From NCBI GenBank assembly GCA_027365225.1, contig DAHXNV010000008.1:1-64000 (forward strand): DNA of 64,000 bases, read 5' to 3'. The notes under the pieces are model-generated. The model ran no database searches and had not been told where the DNA came from. It worked only from the letters and a program-made list of their open reading frames with translations. The position numbers were made by a program, and so were the translations under genes. This DNA comes from Gammaproteobacteria bacterium. Lineage in GTDB: Bacteria; Pseudomonadota; Gammaproteobacteria; Steroidobacterales; Steroidobacteraceae. Positions 22,775 to 30,957 of this stretch are shown here, piece after piece (the first letter of the stretch is position 1; each line of letters begins with the position of its first letter).

Positions 22775-23221
22775 ATGGACGCCCAGCAGCTCGAGCGGCG
22801 CCGGACCATCCTGCGCATCCTGCGCAGCGGCGTGGTCCATCGTCAGGCGGACCTGACGCGACTGCTGCGTGAGCAGGGGTACGAGGTGACCCAGTCCTCC
22901 GTCAGCCGCGACCTGCGCGATCTCGGGGTGTTCAAGGCGAGCGGCCGCTATGTGCTGCCTCCGGAGGAACTCACGCGTGCCCAGGGCGATTTCGCGATGC
23001 TCGGTCAGTTCGTACGCGGCTTGCGGCGCGCGGGCGCTTCCCTTGCCGTACTGCGCACCACCACGGGCGCGGCGCAGAGTGTTGCGGTCGCCATCGACCG
23101 CGCCGATTGGCCGGAGGTCGCCGGTACCCTGTCCGGCGACGACACCATTTTCATAGCCACCGCCTCAGCGCGCGCGCAGGACGAGCTTGTCGCTCGGCTG
23201 CAGGCGCTTTTTCGGATTTAG
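22775..23221 (+). CDS. argR: Arginine repressor
   Basis: This 148-residue protein has an N-terminal winged helix (VTQSSVSRDLRDLGVFK as the recognition region, about 42-58). Its C-terminal oligomerisation and arginine-binding domain contains the GDDTIF motif (about 124-129). With arginine bound it hexamerises and binds paired ARG boxes. It is the first gene of the operon, four bases before argG, and two ARG boxes lie directly upstream, so it should repress itself and the whole arginine pathway. Confidence 0.93.
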   Translation: MDAQQLERRRTILRILRSGVVHRQADLTRLLREQGYEVTQSSVSRDLRDLGVFKASGRYVLPPEELTRAQGDFAMLGQFVRGLRRAGASLAVLRTTTGAAQSVAVAIDRADWPEVAGTLSGDDTIFIATASARAQDELVARLQALFRI

Positions 23222-23224
23222 CCC

Positions 23225-24457
23225 ATGACCACAGCCTCCACCGCGGGCGAGCAGCCCATTGTTCTTGCGTATTCCGGTGGCCTCGACACCTCGTTCCTGG
23301 TGCCGTGGCTGACCGAGACCTACCGCCGGCCGGTCATCACCGTGACGGTGGATACCGGCGGGATCGACGCCGAGGCGGCGCGCACGCTCGCGGAGCGAGC
23401 CCGCGCGCTGGGGGCGATCGAGCATCATCAGGTCGATGCGCGCGCCCAGTACTTCGAGCAGGTGCTGCGCTTCCTGATCATGGGCAATGTCCGGCGCGGG
23501 CAGGTGTATCCCCTGTGCGTGGGGGCCGAGCGGGTGATGCAAGCGCAGACCCTCGCCCACATGGCGCGCCAGCTCGGCACCTCCATGATCGCCCACGGCT
23601 GCACCGCGGCCGGCAACGATCAGGTGCGCTTCGAGGTCGCGCTGCGCACGCTCGCGCCGGAACTCGAGGTCCTTGCCCCGGTGCGCGATCACGCCTTCAA
23701 GCGGCCGCAAGAACTCGCGTTCCTGCAGGAGCGCGCTCTGCCGGTGCCACCGTTCGGCGCGGCGTACTCGATCAACCGTGGCCTGTGGGGCGTGACCATC
23801 GGCGGCCAGGAGACCCTGACCTCCTCGGGGGGCATTCCCGAACACGCCTGGGTTCTCACGCGCGAGGCGTTCACCCGGCCGCGGCCGCCCGAGCACCATG
23901 TCATCGCCTTCGAGCGTGGCCGGCCGACGGCCCTCGACGACCGCGCGCTCGAGCCGGTGGCGCTGATCGAGGCGCTGGAGTCGATCGCCGCGCCGTTCGG
24001 CATTGGCCGGGGCATCCACCTCGGCGATACCATCATCGGCACCAAGGGCCGGGTCGCTTTCGAGGCGCCGGCCGCCGAGGTGCTGCTCACCGCGCATCGC
24101 GAGCTCGAGAAGCTCGTCCTGACCGGTCGCCAGCAGCGCATCAAGGAGCTGCTTGCTCAACCCTACGGCGACCTGGTGCACGAGGGGCAGCTGCTCGACC
24201 CGGTCTGCCGCGACATCGAGGCGCTGCTCGAGTCCTCGCAGGCGCGCGTGACCGGCTCGGTACGCGTGGCGCTGCGTCCGGGCAATCTCTTCATCGAGGG
24301 CGTCGAGTCGCCGCACTCGCTGATGAGCGCCTCCAAGGGTGTCTACGGCGAATCGGCCGGCGAGTGGACGGCGCGCGACGCGCTCGGCTTTTCCAAGATC
24401 GTCGCGCTGAGCGGCGTGTTTCACCGGCGCGCCGGCGCGCCGGGCGAGAGCGCCTGA
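23225..24457 (+). CDS. argG: Argininosuccinate synthase
   Basis: This 410-residue protein joins citrulline and aspartate with ATP. It has the N-type ATP pyrophosphatase loop YSGGLDTS (about 16-23), AHGCTAAGNDQVRF, and YSINRGLWGVTIGG for substrate binding. The segments GNVRRGQVYPLCVGAER and LAPELEVLAPVRD resemble the Bacteroidetes-type ArgG more than the E. coli or Xanthomonas enzymes as I recall them. It lies between argR and gene X with gaps of four and one bases, so it is in the same transcript. Confidence 0.92.
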   Translation: MTTASTAGEQPIVLAYSGGLDTSFLVPWLTETYRRPVITVTVDTGGIDAEAARTLAERARALGAIEHHQVDARAQYFEQVLRFLIMGNVRRGQVYPLCVGAERVMQAQTLAHMARQLGTSMIAHGCTAAGNDQVRFEVALRTLAPELEVLAPVRDHAFKRPQELAFLQERALPVPPFGAAYSINRGLWGVTIGGQETLTSSGGIPEHAWVLTREAFTRPRPPEHHVIAFERGRPTALDDRALEPVALIEALESIAAPFGIGRGIHLGDTIIGTKGRVAFEAPAAEVLLTAHRELEKLVLTGRQQRIKELLAQPYGDLVHEGQLLDPVCRDIEALLESSQARVTGSVRVALRPGNLFIEGVESPHSLMSASKGVYGESAGEWTARDALGFSKIVALSGVFHRRAGAPGESA

Positions 24458-24458
24458 G

Positions 24459-25535
24459 ATGGCCAACGGCATGCGCAGCGTCGTCGTCGACAAGATCGCC
24501 TCGGTGGCCCAAGCGTGCGGCCTTTCGCACGAGGTGCGCGTCGCGGCCGACATCCCGGCCGAGGAGGGCGTGGTGATCGTGGTCGAGGTGCTGACCAACA
24601 AGTCGACGTACAATCAACTGGAACTGAGCAGCGGCCGCATGGCCAAGGTGCGCAAGGGCGATGTCGTGGTCGGCGCGCTGGGGCACCGCAAGGCCCTGTT
24701 CGGCTATTCGGGCCACATCCCGCCGGCGGTCAAGGTCGGCGACGTGATACAGATGCTCAACATCGGCGGGGTGCTCGGGGTGTGCGATTCGATCAACCCC
24801 GACAAGGGCCAGCCGTTCGACTGCCGGGTGATCGGCGTCGTGCTGCGCTTTCCCTACCTCGGCGAGCGCATCGGTGTGCCGGCTCGGGCTGGACACCGCA
24901 AGCTCGATCCGTCGGCGCGTTTGGAGACCCTCAACGTCCCGGTCGTGGCGCTCGCCGGAACGTGCATGGAGGCCGGCAAGACCGCAGCCGCCTGTGCCGT
25001 GATCAGCCGCATGCGCCATCGCGGCCTGACGATCGATGCGTTCAAGGCTACGGGCGTCTCGCTGCGGCGCGACATTCTCGCCATGGAGGATGCCGGCGCG
25101 CGCCGCTCCGCAATCTTCACGGATTTCGGCGTCGTCACCACCACGCGCGGCAACGGCCCGGCGCTGACCCGGGCGATGCTGACCGAACTCGCCGCCGGCA
25201 AGCCTGACGTGATCGTGTTCGAGCTGGGCGACGGCATTCTCGGCACCTACGGCGTGGATGCCATCCTGGAGTGTCCCGACATCCGCGCCGTGCTGACCGG
25301 CGTGGTGCTTTCGGCCAACGATCCGGTGGCGGCCTGGGGCGGCGTGAAGCTGCTGCGCGAGCGCTTCGAGATCGAGCCGTGTGTGGTGACCGGACCGGCC
25401 ACCGACAACCAGGTCGGTGTCGATCTGATCACGGATCAGCTGCGGGTGCCGGCGTTCAACGCCATCAGCAGCGGTGCGCAACTGGGCGAGCATGTCATGC
25501 AGGCCGTCGGCCTGGCGCGCCAAGGCGAGCCATGA
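24459..25535 (+). CDS. P-loop protein of DUF1611/DgcN type inside the arginine operon (gene X), candidate acyl-glutamate synthase
   Basis: This 358-residue soluble protein has two halves. The N-terminal half (about 1-160) is conserved-looking: VVVEVLTNKSTYNQ, GHRKALFGYSGHIP, GGVLGVCDSINPDKG. The C-terminal half holds a P-loop at 167-175 (GTCMEAGKT), FKATGVSLRRD, EDAGA and FELGDGILGTYGVDAIL. This layout resembles DUF1611, whose member DgcN, as I recall, N-acetylates D-glutamate. It starts one base after argG and overlaps argC by ATGA, so it is translated with the arginine enzymes. No other acylglutamate synthase is present in the operon. A role in making N-acyl-L-glutamate is therefore an attractive hypothesis, but it is unproven; an assembly or regulatory GTPase is the alternative. 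Confidence 0.6.
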   Translation: MANGMRSVVVDKIASVAQACGLSHEVRVAADIPAEEGVVIVVEVLTNKSTYNQLELSSGRMAKVRKGDVVVGALGHRKALFGYSGHIPPAVKVGDVIQMLNIGGVLGVCDSINPDKGQPFDCRVIGVVLRFPYLGERIGVPARAGHRKLDPSARLETLNVPVVALAGTCMEAGKTAAACAVISRMRHRGLTIDAFKATGVSLRRDILAMEDAGARRSAIFTDFGVVTTTRGNGPALTRAMLTELAAGKPDVIVFELGDGILGTYGVDAILECPDIRAVLTGVVLSANDPVAAWGGVKLLRERFEIEPCVVTGPATDNQVGVDLITDQLRVPAFNAISSGAQLGEHVMQAVGLARQGEP

Positions 25536-26593
25536 GCGAGCGCATTCCCGCCGTGGTGCTCGGCGGCACCGGCTACGTGGCCGGAGAGTTGCTGCGGCTG
25601 CTCGCCGGACATCCGCACTTCGAGGTGCGCGCGGTGATGTCGGACAGCCAGCCGGGCGAACCGCTCGGGGCGGCCTTCCCCCACCTCGCGGCGGCCTATG
25701 GTGAGGCGTGCTTTCAGCCGCACAACGAGATCGAGTCACTCCTGACCCGCGTGCCGCACAGCGCGGTGTTCTGTGCCGCGCCGCACGGGGTCTGCGCCCA
25801 GCTCATCGATTCCCTGCTCACCGCTGCCGAGGCTGCCGGCACCCGGCCGCGCGTGGTGGACACCTCCGCCGACTTCCGCTTCCGGTCGGCCGACGCCTAT
25901 CAGCGGGTCTACAAGCATCCGCACGGCGCGCCGCAGCGCCTCGCGCAGTTCACCTGCGCCATGCCGGAGCATCTGGCCGAATCGAGTACCCCGCACGTGG
26001 CTCATCCGGGCTGCTTCGCCAGCGCAGTGCTGCTGGCGAGCGTGCCGCTGCTCACCCTGGGACTGACGCCACCGCAGCTGTTCGTGTCGGGAGTGACCGG
26101 CAGCACCGGGTCGGGACGCAAACCGGTGGCGGGCACGCATCATCCCGTGCGTCACAGCGATCTCTATGCCTACAGTGCGCTTGCGCACCGTCATGCGCCT
26201 GAGATCGCAGCCTGTGCCCACGCCGCCGCGGGTGTGTGGGCGGATATCGCCTTCGTCCCGCATTCCGGACCGTTCGCGCGCGGCATTCACGTGACCGTGC
26301 AGGCGCCGCTGGTGCGGCCGCTCGAGACCGCCGAGGTGATCGGTGCGCTGCGCGGGTTCTATGCCGGATCGCGATTCGTGCGCGTGCTCGAGGCGCCGCC
26401 GCGCGTGAAAGACGTCGTCGCCAGCAATTACGCGCACCTGAGCGCGGTGAGCGATGGCCGAACGGTGGCCGTGATGTGTACTCTCGACAATCTCACGAAA
26501 GGCGCCGCCGGCGGCGCGGTGCAGTGGATGAACCGGATGTTCGGCCTGGCGGAGACCGACGGTCTGACGGCACCGGCACCCGGTTGGACCTGA
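25532..26593 (+). CDS. argC: N-acyl-gamma-glutamyl-phosphate reductase
   Basis: This 353-residue enzyme reduces N-acyl-glutamyl phosphate to the semialdehyde with NADPH. It has GGTGYVAGELLRLL for the cofactor (about 10-23), the catalytic Cys in HPGCFASAVLLA (about 163) and the conserved GSTGSGRKP. DNLTKGAAGGAVQ near the C-terminus is the usual signature. It starts within the stop of gene X (ATGA), and argD follows after 15 bases. If the pathway is succinylated, the substrate would be N-succinylglutamyl phosphate; nothing in the visible motifs decides this. Confidence 0.92.
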   Translation: MSERIPAVVLGGTGYVAGELLRLLAGHPHFEVRAVMSDSQPGEPLGAAFPHLAAAYGEACFQPHNEIESLLTRVPHSAVFCAAPHGVCAQLIDSLLTAAEAAGTRPRVVDTSADFRFRSADAYQRVYKHPHGAPQRLAQFTCAMPEHLAESSTPHVAHPGCFASAVLLASVPLLTLGLTPPQLFVSGVTGSTGSGRKPVAGTHHPVRHSDLYAYSALAHRHAPEIAACAHAAAGVWADIAFVPHSGPFARGIHVTVQAPLVRPLETAEVIGALRGFYAGSRFVRVLEAPPRVKDVVASNYAHLSAVSDGRTVAVMCTLDNLTKGAAGGAVQWMNRMFGLAETDGLTAPAPGWT

Positions 26594-26608: not shown

Positions 26609-27784
26609 ATGAACGCAACGACACCGGGCCATTGCGCGCCGTCCGAGGCGCCCCGCGACGCTCTGGCGCCGGTCTACGCCCAATACCCGTTCGAGGTCGA
26701 TCACGCCGAAGGGGTCTGGCTGATCAACGCGCGCGGCGAGCGCCTGCTCGACCTGTACGGCGGGCACGCGGTGGCCGCCCTCGGTTACGGCCACCCCGGC
26801 TGGACCGAAGCGCTGGCCGCGCAGGCGCGCGCCTGCCAGTTCCAGACCAACGCGCTGCCGATGGCGATCCGTGCGCGTGCGGCGCAACGGCTGCTGGCGT
26901 TCTCCCAACTCGAGCTCGCCAGCGTATTCCTGGTCAACAGCGGCGCGGAGGCCAATGAGAACGCGCTGCGCCTGGCTCTGCGGGTGACCGCACGGCCGCA
27001 CGTGGCGGCGCTCGAGGGGGCCTTCCACGGCCGGACCGCCGCGGCGGCGGCCGTGACCTGGGGTTCCGAGGCCTGGTACGGCTTTCCCCGCAAGCCCTTC
27101 GATGTCAGCTTCATGCCGCGGCACGAGCCCGGCGCCATCGCCGAGCACGTGACCGAGCGCACCGCCGCCGTCATCGTCGAGCCGGTGCAGGGCCTGGCCG
27201 GCGCCGTCGATCTCGGTGCGCCGTATCTTGCGGCCCTGCGCGAGCGCTGTGACCGGGTCGGCGCGCTGTTGATCTTCGATGAAGTGCAATGTGGGCTCGG
27301 GCGCGTGGGCGCCCCGTTCGCCGCCACCCTGTACGGGGTCACGCCCGATCTGCTGACGACGGCGAAGGCGCTCGGCAATGGCTTCCCATGCGCGGCGCTG
27401 CTGACATCGGCGCGGGTATCGGCCGCTTTGAAGGTCGGTGAGCTCGGCACGACCTACGGCGGTGGGCCGATGGCCTGTGCGGCATTGCTCGCCTGCATCG
27501 AGGCGATCGAGTCGCAGCGGCTGTTGGAGAACGTCCGGCACATGTCGGAGACGATCCGCCGCACGTGTCACGTCGGGCCCGTGAGCGCCATCCAGGGCGA
27601 GGGGCTGTTGCTCGGGCTGCGCATGCGCCGCCCCGCCAAGCAGATCCAGGCCGAGCTGCTGCGCCGCGGCATCCTCGCCGGCACGGCGAGCGACCCGCAG
27701 GTCCTGCGGCTGCTGCCGCCGTTCATTCTCCAGGCCGCGCACGTCGAGCTGCTGCGCCGGGCGCTGGCGGACATCGGCGAATGA
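26609..27784 (+). CDS. argD: N-acylornithine aminotransferase (ArgD family)
   Basis: This 391-residue class III PLP aminotransferase has LYGGHAVAALG, VNSGAEANENALRLA, the PLP-binding Asp in IFDEVQCGLGR and the Schiff-base Lys in TTAKALGNGFP. LYGGHAV and NSGAEANENAL match the Bacteroidetes ArgD pattern. It converts N-acylglutamate semialdehyde to N-acylornithine using glutamate. Its stop overlaps the argF' start (ATGA), so the product can pass straight to the next enzyme. Confidence 0.9.
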   Translation: MNATTPGHCAPSEAPRDALAPVYAQYPFEVDHAEGVWLINARGERLLDLYGGHAVAALGYGHPGWTEALAAQARACQFQTNALPMAIRARAAQRLLAFSQLELASVFLVNSGAEANENALRLALRVTARPHVAALEGAFHGRTAAAAAVTWGSEAWYGFPRKPFDVSFMPRHEPGAIAEHVTERTAAVIVEPVQGLAGAVDLGAPYLAALRERCDRVGALLIFDEVQCGLGRVGAPFAATLYGVTPDLLTTAKALGNGFPCAALLTSARVSAALKVGELGTTYGGGPMACAALLACIEAIESQRLLENVRHMSETIRRTCHVGPVSAIQGEGLLLGLRMRRPAKQIQAELLRRGILAGTASDPQVLRLLPPFILQAAHVELLRRALADIGE

Positions 27785-28782
27785 AGCGATTCCTCGACCT
27801 GGCGGAGCTGGCCCGCGCGGAGGTGCTCGCGCTGCTGGAGCTGGCCGGACGGCTCGAGCGGCAGCCGGAGCCGCGCGCGCTCGAGGGCAAGATCCTCGGC
27901 CTGCTGTTCATGAACCCCTCGCTGCGCACGCTCGCCTCGATGCAGGCCGGCATGGCGCGGCTCGGGGGTAGCTCCTTCGTGATCACACCGGGGCAGGGCA
28001 CCTGGCAGCTCGAGACACGCCTCGGCGCGGTGATGAGCGGCGCGGCCGCCGAGCACGTGCGCGAGGGCATCCCGGTGCTGGCCTCCTACTGCGATGCGCT
28101 CGGGATCCGCGCCTTCGCCGATGGGCGCGATCTGGCCGCCGATCTGGCCGAGACCAACTTCAACGCGATGGCGGCGCTGACCAGCAAGCCCCTGATCAAC
28201 CTCGAGTCCGCCGTCAATCATCCCTGTCAGGCGCTTGCCGACTGGAAGACGCTGGACGATCTGGGCGTGGCGCGACACGGCCGCTTCGTGCTCTCCTGGG
28301 TCTATCATCCGCGGCCGCTGCCGCTGGCGGTCCCGGCCGCAGCGCTGCACATGGCGGCGTTGCGCGGGATGGAGGTGGTGGTGCTGCGGCCCGCAGGCTT
28401 TGCGCTGCCGCAGGCGATCATGGACAAGGCTCGCCGCGCCGCCTCGATGAGCGGCGGCTCGATTCGCGAGAGCGACGTGCGGCGCGAGGCGCTGGCGGGC
28501 GCGGCCGTCATTTACGCCAAGGAATGGGGTGCGACCGAATGTTACGGCGATACGGCGGCGGATGCGCGTCTGCGCGCCGCGCACGCCGACTGGTGCGTGC
28601 GCGGCGACTGGTTCGAGCATGCGGCGCCGGAGTGCCGCCTGATGCATTGCCTGCCCGTGCGGCGCAACGTCGCCGTGGCGGACGAGGTCCTCGATGGCCC
28701 GCGCAGCGCCGTGCTGCGCGAGGCGTACAATCGGCTGACGGCGCAAATGGCGGTGTTGTACCGCCTGCTGAAGGGGCTGTGA
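27781..28782 (+). CDS. argF': N-succinyl-L-ornithine carbamoyltransferase (predicted; AOTCase/SOTCase family)
   Basis: This 333-residue transcarbamylase carries FMNPSLRT for carbamoyl phosphate (about 43-50), NHPCQALAD and HCLPVRRN. VYHPRPLPLAVP and the HCLPVRR form are hallmarks of the acyl-ornithine group, not of ordinary ArgF. The residue before Glu-His in SGAAAEH is Ala90. This aligns with Glu92 of the Xanthomonas acetylornithine enzyme and Pro90 of the Bacteroides succinylornithine enzyme. Published mutants at this site (Glu92 to Pro, Ser, Val or Ala, as I recall) switch the acetyl enzyme to succinyl substrates. Overall it also looks closer to the Bacteroides enzyme (GIPVLASYCDALGIRAF). 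The family is sure; the acyl specificity is predicted. Confidence 0.82.
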   Translation: MKRFLDLAELARAEVLALLELAGRLERQPEPRALEGKILGLLFMNPSLRTLASMQAGMARLGGSSFVITPGQGTWQLETRLGAVMSGAAAEHVREGIPVLASYCDALGIRAFADGRDLAADLAETNFNAMAALTSKPLINLESAVNHPCQALADWKTLDDLGVARHGRFVLSWVYHPRPLPLAVPAAALHMAALRGMEVVVLRPAGFALPQAIMDKARRAASMSGGSIRESDVRREALAGAAVIYAKEWGATECYGDTAADARLRAAHADWCVRGDWFEHAAPECRLMHCLPVRRNVAVADEVLDGPRSAVLREAYNRLTAQMAVLYRLLKGL

Positions 28783-28826
28783 TCCGGACATGGTTATCGA
28801 TATTCCGACGAGGACTCTCAACTGAC

Positions 28827-29765
28827 ATGATCATGCAACCCGGCGACCAGGCACTGGCCATACGCGCGCTGAAAAGCGCGGCACCCTACATCCGCATGTA
28901 TCGCGGCAAGACGTTCGTGGTGAAGGTGGGCGGCGGGGTGTTTGTCGAGGAGGCTGCCACGCGCGCGCTCATCGAGCAGATCGCGCTGTTGCATTATTTC
29001 GGCGTCCGAGTGGTGTTTGTACACGGCGGCGGCCCGCAGGTCACGGAGCTGGCCAACGCGCTCGGCCTGGAGTCGCGCATGGTGGAAGGCCGCCGCGTCA
29101 CCGATCGCCGATCGATGGACGTCACCACGATGGTGCTCAACGGCGCGATCAATACCCGCATTCTGGGCGTGTGCCGCGAGCTGAACGTCGAGGCCGTCGG
29201 AGTCAGCGGGGTCGATGCCGGCCTGGTGCGTGCGCACAAACGCCCGCCGGTGCAGATGGCCTCGACTGGCGAGTTGGTCGACTTTGGGTTCGTGGGCGAT
29301 ATCGACGTGGTCGATCCGGCGGTGCTGCGCACGCTCCTCGACAGCAATCTGATGCCGGTGGTGAGTCCCCTGTCGGCCGACGATGCGGGGACCCTGCTCA
29401 ACATCAATGCCGATACGGTGGCCGCCGCCCTGGCCGCGGCGCTCGGCGCCGAGAAGCTCGTCCTGTGCACCGGCGCACCCGGCATCCTCGCCGATCGTGC
29501 CGATCCGGGCTCGCTCATTTCCTACACCGACCTCGCGGGCCTGCGCGAGCTGTGCCAGCAGGGGTGCATCGCCGAGGGTATGTTGCCGAAGACCAAGGCC
29601 ATCGAAGCAGCCATCCGCGGCGGGGTGCGCCGCGTGCACGTGGTGTCGTACCAGGCGCCCGAGGGCATCCTCGGCGAGGTATTCACCAACGAGGGGACCG
29701 GCACGCTGATCGTCGCGGACGTCAATGCGCTGACGCCGGCCGAGCAGCACGGCGCCGGGGGCTAG
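28827..29765 (+). CDS. argB: N-acylglutamate kinase
   Basis: This 312-residue amino-acid kinase has VVKVGGGVF (about 30-38), VHGGGPQV, the substrate Arg in EGRRVTDRR and NINADTVAAALA, and ends near GTLIVAD. It phosphorylates N-acylglutamate. Unlike the Xanthomonas protein it has no fused C-terminal acetyltransferase domain, so it cannot itself supply the first step. ATG 28827 follows GAGGA at 13 bases; ATG 28833 is an alternative. It starts 44 bases after argF' and ends one base before argH. Confidence 0.92.
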   Translation: MIMQPGDQALAIRALKSAAPYIRMYRGKTFVVKVGGGVFVEEAATRALIEQIALLHYFGVRVVFVHGGGPQVTELANALGLESRMVEGRRVTDRRSMDVTTMVLNGAINTRILGVCRELNVEAVGVSGVDAGLVRAHKRPPVQMASTGELVDFGFVGDIDVVDPAVLRTLLDSNLMPVVSPLSADDAGTLLNINADTVAAALAAALGAEKLVLCTGAPGILADRADPGSLISYTDLAGLRELCQQGCIAEGMLPKTKAIEAAIRGGVRRVHVVSYQAPEGILGEVFTNEGTGTLIVADVNALTPAEQHGAGG

Positions 29766-29766
29766 C

Positions 29767-30957
29767 GTGAGCCGGCTGTGGGACAAAGGCGCGCCGCTCG
29801 ATGAGCGGGTGCTGCGCTTCACCGCCGGGGAGGACTTCAGCCTCGATGAGCGGCTCATCGCCTATGACATCCGCGCGTCGATCGCGCATGCCGAGATGCT
29901 GCTCGAGCAGGGACTGCTTGCTCGGGCGGACCTCGAGGCCATTCGCGGCGGTCTGACGGCGCTCGGGCAAGCCCATGCCCAAGGGCAGTGGCACGTTGAG
30001 CTACCCGACGAGGATGGGCACACCGCCCTGGAGCGCCGGTTGACTGAACGAATCGGTCCTGCGGGGGGCCGGGTCCATCTTGGGCGCTCGCGCAACGATC
30101 AGGTGCTCGCTGCCCTGCGGCTCTATCTGCGCGATGCGCTCGAGGACCTGAGCGCCGGCGCGATAGCGGTCGCGCAGGCCCTGGAGCGGCTCGGCGCGCG
30201 CGAGCAGACCACGGCGCTGCCGGGCTACACGCACATGCAGCAGGCGATGCCGAGCTCCGTGCCGTTGTGGGCGGGTGGCTTCGCCGCCGAGATCCGCGAC
30301 GATGCCGAAGCCCTGCGCCACGTCCATCGCCGCCTGGGCCGCAATCCGCTCGGATCGGCGGCCGGCTACGGCACCCCGGGGCTGCCGCTCGACCGCGAGG
30401 CGACGCGCGAGAAACTCGGCTTCGCGTCCGTGCAGGAACCGGTGACTGCCGTGCAGCTCTCCCGCGGCAAGGCTGAGGCGGAGCTGCTCTTCCACGTCAC
30501 CATCCTGCTGCAGGACGTCGGACGCCTGGCCGCCGACGTGCTGCTCTTCTGTACGGAGGAATTCGGCTTCGTGCGCCTGCCGGAGGCGTTCACCACCGGC
30601 TCCTCGATCATGCCGCAGAAGCGCAATCCGGACCTCTTCGAGCTGATCCGCGGCCGCTCGGCCACCGCCCAGGCGTGCCTGCTGGAAGTCCTCGCCATCT
30701 GTGCCAAGCTGCCGTCAGGATATCAGCGCGATCTGCAGCTGTTGAAGTTTCCGCTGTTTCGCGCCATCGATCTGGCGTTGGAGACCCTGGGCATCCTGCC
30801 CGCCGCGCTCGATGCGCTCTCGTTCCGGACCGAGCGTATCCGGTTGGATCCGGCCATCCACGCTGCCGAGGAAGCCAACCGCCTCGTCGTGCGCGAAGGC
30901 ATCCCCTTCCGCGAGGCCTACCGCCGCGTGGCGGCGAAGCTGAAGGGATCGGGATAG
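29767..30957 (+). CDS. argH: Argininosuccinate lyase, short C-terminus
   Basis: This 396-residue fumarase-superfamily enzyme splits argininosuccinate to arginine and fumarate. HLGRSRNDQV, GYTHMQQAMP with the catalytic His, and the flexible signature loop GSSIMPQKRNPD are intact. It begins with GTG one base after the argB stop. The chain stops soon after GIPFREAYRRVAAKLKG, about 35-60 residues earlier than most ArgH proteins. The missing part is the variable C-terminal helix pair, so activity is plausible. A hairpin (CCGCTG-CG-CAGCGG, 30968-30981) follows the stop. No coding signal is seen from there to 31239. Confidence 0.9.
   Translation: MSRLWDKGAPLDERVLRFTAGEDFSLDERLIAYDIRASIAHAEMLLEQGLLARADLEAIRGGLTALGQAHAQGQWHVELPDEDGHTALERRLTERIGPAGGRVHLGRSRNDQVLAALRLYLRDALEDLSAGAIAVAQALERLGAREQTTALPGYTHMQQAMPSSVPLWAGGFAAEIRDDAEALRHVHRRLGRNPLGSAAGYGTPGLPLDREATREKLGFASVQEPVTAVQLSRGKAEAELLFHVTILLQDVGRLAADVLLFCTEEFGFVRLPEAFTTGSSIMPQKRNPDLFELIRGRSATAQACLLEVLAICAKLPSGYQRDLQLLKFPLFRAIDLALETLGILPAALDALSFRTERIRLDPAIHAAEEANRLVVREGIPFREAYRRVAAKLKGSG

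Follow-up and report, generated by a model that had tools for sequence, protein, structure and literature searches.

The window analyzed here, a stretch of 64,000 nucleotides from a gammaproteobacterial genome (Steroidobacteraceae; contig DAHXNV010000008.1 of assembly GCA_027365225.1), carries a run of arginine genes in the order argR, argG, X, argC, argD, argF', argB and argH (Table 1), in which X denotes an open reading frame for a protein of 358 amino acids. The ATG of X follows the argG stop codon (TGA, 24455-24457) after a single base, and its last four bases, ATGA, also open argC. The first-pass annotation of this DNA had described a P-loop protein of this length coupled to both argG and argC, and the sequence and the coordinates bear out both points. 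It had also stated that the operon holds every enzyme from N-acylglutamate kinase to argininosuccinate lyase, which stands for the neighboring genes by their Pfam domains and falls for the deacylase, since none of the eight operon genes scanned in the window encodes one. The absence of a synthase fused to ArgB is confirmed, since this protein of 315 amino acids has an AA_kinase domain only.

Table 1. Features of the arginine operon around gene X (window coordinates)
Feature	Position	Strand	Basis
argR, arginine repressor	22775..23221	+	Pfam domains over cut-off; NCBIfam equivalogs below cut-off
argG, argininosuccinate synthase	23225..24457	+	Pfam over cut-off
Gene X, candidate N-acyl (probably N-succinyl)-L-glutamate synthase	24459..25535	+	Open reading frame, relatives, operon place
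X N-terminal domain, residues 1-150	24459..24908	+	Nearly all-beta model, pLDDT 91.9
X Walker A GTCMEAGKT, residues 167-175	24957..24983	+	Sequence motif
argC, N-acyl-gamma-glutamyl-phosphate reductase	25532..26593	+	Pfam over cut-off; ATGA overlap with X
argD, acylornithine aminotransferase	26609..27784	+	Pfam over cut-off; TIGR00707 310 bits, below cut-off
argF', carbamoyltransferase, acetyl/succinyl-ornithine type	27781..28782	+	NF003384 342.6 bits vs cut-off 288
argF' codon for Ala at the Glu92 position of Xanthomonas AOTCase, specificity residue	28048..28050	+	
argB, N-acylglutamate kinase, without fused synthase domain	28818..29765	+	Pfam over cut-off
argH, argininosuccinate lyase, without fused GNAT domain	29767..30957	+	Pfam over cut-off

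The full-length model of X has a mean pLDDT of 93.9, and its C-terminal domain is predicted to adopt the P-loop fold common to DUF1611/DgcN, dethiobiotin synthetase (BioD) and CTP synthase. The best Z scores of this domain were 17.1 for CTP synthase, 16.7 for 2g0t, 16.5 for dethiobiotin synthetase, 16.3 for 2obn and 15.6 for 7xrj, so that in the model CTP synthase, DUF1611, BioD and DgcN are practically tied; a P-loop fold is common and by itself shows no function. The N-terminal domain, modeled alone, is nearly all-beta; Foldseek returned no match for it at E 0.001 or better, and its best PDB hit, to LexA, had a Z score of 3.5, which does not prove a new fold. At the sequence level, a PDB search with X alone gave no match, and a profile of X relatives gave weak BioD and MobB P-loop matches (BioD at E 0.0023, about 50 residues over the P-loop stretch). 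NCBIfam yielded no match on X at E up to 0.1, thus neither ArgA (TIGR01890) nor BioD; the Pfam matches listed for X (E up to 10) include neither ArgJ (PF01960) nor a GNAT domain. Residues K196, T198, G199, D205 and E255, forming a Lys-x-Thr-Gly motif, an Asp and a Glu, are invariant in 50 aligned rows and, as judged from sequence, presumably resemble the ATP, Mg and carboxylate ligands of dethiobiotin synthetase. X differs from BioD and CTP synthase (Z 14.8 to 17.1 for the C-terminal fold) in its N-terminal domain and its genome setting, and the sequence similarity is confined to about 50 residues.

A resemblance to the DUF1611/DgcN family had been proposed from the sequence, and as a claim of membership it does not hold. 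PF07755 scored 17.2 bits on X against a cut-off of 25 (E 0.0036, residues 154-199 only), and PF17396 was not listed at E up to 10 (the HMMER filters may drop very weak matches), whereas in the same scan the DgcN-type proteins of loci L249 (580.8 bits to 7xrj) and L257 gave PF17396 at 92.3 and 79.3 bits and PF07755 as well. From 20 DgcN-type loci, the pattern GTD[CAS].[VI]GK retrieved 16 open reading frames, of which 13 were aligned after three with trimmed starts had been dropped; hhalign of X against these 13 rows covered 41-44 columns, of the P-loop only, with a probability of 5-18%. Walker A ends in GKT in 85/86 X sequences (the remaining one lying off the search pattern) and in GKM in 13/13 DgcN-type rows. 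Structurally, the P-loop domain matches 7xrj, 2g0t and 2obn (Z 15.6 to 16.7) in a tie with CTP synthase and BioD; with the DgcN/DUF1611 proteins it has in common a GT....GK, an F-K/R-ATG and an E-then-G motif in similar order. The N-terminal domain is nearly all-beta in X and described as Rossmann-like for PF17396. X is therefore set outside the DgcN/DUF1611 family by the sub-threshold PF07755, the missing PF17396, the all-beta N-terminal model and GKT instead of GKM.

When a single genome of each species was scanned, 314 stretches encoded a relative of X, and the best 80 of these 314 loci were analyzed; all are titled as metagenome assemblies, several of them Steroidobacteraceae. Among these 80, argG lies at most 400 bases upstream of X in 78 and argC at most 400 bases downstream in 78; the misses are three contig ends and locus L097. 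The full eight-gene set was found in 53/80, in one of which more than 350 bases separate two aligned parts. Of 274 genomes drawn from the class, 19 gave a match to X, which was strong in six (E 1.4e-71 or better; G000, G017, G167, G040, G118 and G234). In G040, G118 and G234, which add two further families, identity to X is just 41-45% and the gene still lies between argG and argC (L004-L006). A relative in another class (G578, locus L175; 71% identical) stands in the order argR-X-argC-argB, as in L097, with no argG, argD or argF match beside X in either locus. Since X keeps company with argC and argB in these two reduced sets, it appears tied to the early steps of the pathway. No argD match was seen beside X in L070, L074 and L087. 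A metagenome contig titled Klebsiella pneumoniae (L066) carries the operon; its X is 77% identical and falls within the Steroidobacteraceae-like rows, and the title is probably a mislabel.

Homologues of only 25-35% identity were weighed as possible versions of this enzyme and then kept separate; 13/13 class genomes with only such homologues have ArgA over cut-off. In a tree, the arg-operon X sequences held together (99/95), with a bootstrap that is not settled and long branches that meet. One sister subfamily, about 30% identical to X, directly adjoins an M20 peptidase gene in G167, G008 and G554, one of these three genomes belonging to another class (L104:6402-8603, L106:5793-7543 and L176:7136-9341). 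The M20 domain is over its Pfam cut-off in 3/3, and the L104 peptidase resembles glutamate carboxypeptidase models below cut-off; judged from sequence, this subfamily and the M20 gene are a conserved pair. A third subfamily adjoins an ABC transporter gene with PF00005 and PF00664 over cut-off (L107:6690-9451, L112:6498-9289 and L115:6256-9194) in genomes that have ArgA; by eye, the same neighbor is present in L108, L109, L110 and L114, and in L178 the transmembrane part of the transporter alone was matched.

The assembly from which the window derives measures 1.96 Mb and is 65.6% complete. No ArgJ was found in it, and the ArgA model gave only its ArgB kinase match and one weak GNAT match of 28.7 bits; with this completeness such absences are weak, and the relatives bear the argument. 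ArgA (TIGR01890) was over cut-off in 0/6 strong-X class genomes and in 0/50 further X genomes (50 of the 80 named loci), in 48 of which, G280 and G300 being the two others, the ArgB kinase stretch of the model was matched. Likewise, ArgJ was found in 0/6 and 0/50 of these same genomes, as compared with 207/274 in the class draw, i.e. 207/268 outside the strong-X six (Fisher p 1.8e-4, uncorrected for kinship). The NAT domain of bifunctional synthase-kinases was missing from 45 of 45 X genomes, 38 of the 80 named loci included; its model matched 0/14 named control genomes, and its positive controls are the two Xanthomonas-like AOTCase genomes G012 and G165 only, both of which have the domain. 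As the six strong-X genomes span four families (f1, f2, f41 and f119), co-occurrence rests on few lineages. That X fills the slot of an acyl-glutamate synthase, as had been suggested for the window, is supported by the kept operon place and by the absence of ArgA, ArgJ and NAT from the X genomes searched.

A synthase of the GNAT family might have been missed by these models, weak GNAT matches of 18-40 bits being present in many of the 50 further X genomes and 5 to 14 GNAT proteins per genome in seven X genomes. Hereto, all 38 GNATs from five of these seven, the set without G000 and G167, were compared. Single linkage gave one group that reaches all five genomes and lumps several GNATs together, and the sole set matching mutually across all five (L213, L217, L223, L232 and L240) is RimI, with four members over the TIGR01575 cut-off of 86.4 bits and L240 under it at 77.3. 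A looser set (L216, L230, L225 and L241) covers 4/5 genomes, with no direct match in G118; L230 scores far under the cut-off of a RiPP N-acetyltransferase model, and L216 matches none. A further group covers 3/5. Because the only set shared by all five genomes compared is RimI, we consider a GNAT glutamate synthase in X genomes unlikely.

The partner carbamoyltransferase bears on the identity of the acyl group. In the excerpted text of PMC4581275, acetylornithine enzymes (AOTCase) have Glu92, Asn185 and Lys302 in Xanthomonas numbering, and succinylornithine enzymes (SOTCase) A/S/P/V/Q, P and V/I/E at the same positions; the part of PMC7311316 consulted also covers this residue rule. ArgF' of the window has Ala at 92 and Pro at 185, both in keeping with the SOTCase rule, and Ala at 302, which is neither Lys nor one of the published V/I/E. 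Of 75 X-linked carbamoyltransferases, 73 could be read at positions 92 and 185 and 72 at 302: position 92 is A in 70, V in 2 and P in 1, never Glu; position 185 is Pro in 73/73; and position 302 is A in 67, E in 3 and V in 2, never Lys, its predominant Ala lying outside the published SOTCase residues. The best PDB match of ArgF' is 3l02_A, tied with 3m4n_A; 3l02_A, which we take to be an engineered E92A form, and ArgF' both have Ala where 3m4n_A has Glu. Given these residues of a succinyl-specific enzyme, the product of X is more likely N-succinyl- than N-acetyl-glutamate, and we regard succinyl as the probable acyl group.

An AOTC/SOTC-type carbamoyltransferase was over cut-off in 8/274 class genomes, namely all six with a strong X plus G012 and G165 (Fisher p 5e-11 for its association with X, uncorrected for kinship). 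Those of the latter two genomes, in which X has no match, carry Glu, Asn and Lys at the three diagnostic positions. Two more carbamoyltransferases remained below cut-off, one in G065 with no alignment at the diagnostic loop and one in G153 (L179, G153:C153:1-3036) that is of succinyl type (A/P/A) on a 3-kb contig. G153 has no X match and an ArgJ match at E 3.7e-43, and may be a true exception, an assembly that lacks a piece or one with a stray contig. G167 has a second carbamoyltransferase-like gene, which adjoins an M20 peptidase gene and does not align at the acetyl/succinyl loop (G167:C5:49322-51318; L157, L186).

From its operon place, its conservation and co-occurrence, the absence of known synthases from the genomes searched, the argF' residues and the P-loop fold, we infer that X itself is probably the missing enzyme: it likely encodes an N-acyl-L-glutamate synthase, probably a succinyl one, that would commit glutamate to the arginine pathway, as its first step, where other bacteria use a GNAT or ArgJ synthase. 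X would acylate the alpha-amino group of L-glutamate to N-succinyl-L-glutamate, which would then pass through ArgB, ArgC and ArgD to the succinylornithine-type carbamoyltransferase, and a deacylase encoded outside the operon, putatively an M20 enzyme with several candidates, would free citrulline. Seven X genomes contain 33 PF01546 matches, 30 of which were fetched as loci, and comparison of the M20 proteins by tblastn revealed a DapE-like kind in 6/7 genomes (curated model over cut-off in 4/4 scanned; on a short contig in G167, L196), an amidohydrolase-like kind in 6/7 and a dipeptidase-like kind in 5/7 (NF005914 below cut-off in three scanned). No Xanthomonas-type ArgE turned up in the 30 M20 loci fetched, the reference (L180, NF006439-confirmed) giving one weak match, to a DapE-like protein (E 6e-11). 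With three M20 kinds common to 5-6 of the seven genomes, no single deacylase can be named.

For the acyl donor of this candidate synthase, we hold the chances even that it is succinyl-CoA, an acyl-CoA donor being favored by the related fold of DgcN, which is titled an N-acetyltransferase; succinate activated by ATP is a somewhat less likely possibility, favored by the intact nucleotide site of X. DgcN itself acts on D-glutamate. Taken further, X could be an ATP-dependent N-succinyl-L-glutamate ligase, in which succinate would be activated in a dethiobiotin-synthetase-like site and joined to L-glutamate; the intact GKT Walker A together with the conserved Lys, Asp and Glu would fit such a chemistry, which on the whole we consider somewhat unlikely. 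If true, it would constitute an acyl-glutamate route without acyl-CoA transferase or LysW carrier, within a succinylated arginine pathway of Pseudomonadota.

Other assignments of X were weighed against the synthase of N-succinyl-L-glutamate. It is unlikely that X makes N-acetyl-L-glutamate from acetyl-CoA by a new fold, with a carbamoyltransferase that takes N-acetylornithine despite its residues: the curated N-acetylornithine carbamoyltransferase model is indeed over cut-off (342.6 vs 288 bits), position 302 is mostly Ala and the DgcN structure is titled as an N-acetyltransferase, but Glu is absent at position 92 and Pro invariant at position 185 (n=73), the published marks of the succinyl enzyme. 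X could also be a P-loop NTPase with an accessory or regulatory role in arginine synthesis, glutamate being acylated by a GNAT encoded elsewhere. The intact GKT of Walker A suggests nucleotide binding, GNATs occur in 7/7 X genomes with one non-RimI group in 4/5 of those compared, and the Bacteroidetes GNAT ArgA2 is, in the excerpted text of PMC9026213, a predicted succinylglutamate synthase. This assignment is nevertheless decidedly unlikely, as RimI is the sole GNAT group common to all five genomes compared, the X genomes searched are without ArgA over cut-off, ArgJ and NAT, and X keeps with argC and argB where argG, argD and argF do not adjoin. A transacylase that passes the acyl group from acyl-citrulline to glutamate, like ArgJ does from acetylornithine, would need neither synthase nor deacylase and would agree with the absence of ArgA and ArgJ and with the single weak match of Xanthomonas-type ArgE among the 30 M20 loci. 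We regard it as highly improbable, since a primer would still be required, the DapE-like and amidohydrolase-like M20 proteins (each in 6/7 genomes) could serve as deacylase, and the intact Walker A would have no obvious role.

The step proposed for X is known from other systems. In the excerpted texts of PMC9026213 and PMC7311316, the Bacteroidetes GNAT protein ArgA2 (BT3761) is the predicted N-succinylglutamate synthase, encoded in arginine operons together with a succinylornithine-type carbamoyltransferase and in the absence of ArgA; it shares the proposed step and this setting with X and differs from it in belonging to the GNAT family, X having a P-loop domain. According to the part of a 2015 review consulted (PMC4490483), no gene had by then been assigned to the succinylation of glutamate, and a GNAT-like enzyme was expected. 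The Xanthomonas NAGS-kinase and AOTCase system has the same pathway layout, with carbamoylation before deacylation, whereas the genomes of that type in our draw, G012 and G165, combine a Glu92-type AOTCase with the NAT domain and have no X match. Among the papers listed in our literature searches (most subscription journals lay outside the search), we found no description of the P-loop family in this role. With X, an already known step would probably be carried out by an unrelated family, within an operon type that the literature consulted does not describe.

The first arginine step is a recurring gap in genome annotation, and the P-loop family, if our assignment is true, would close it in yet another way, unrelated to the others. 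This would explain arginine synthesis in a widespread, little-cultured group (314 stretches encode a relative, and several of the loci are titled Steroidobacteraceae). Moreover, the succinylated pathway, which the excerpted sources describe for Bacteroidetes, would extend to the Pseudomonadota, and a conserved family without a curated Pfam or NCBIfam model of its own would gain a testable function.
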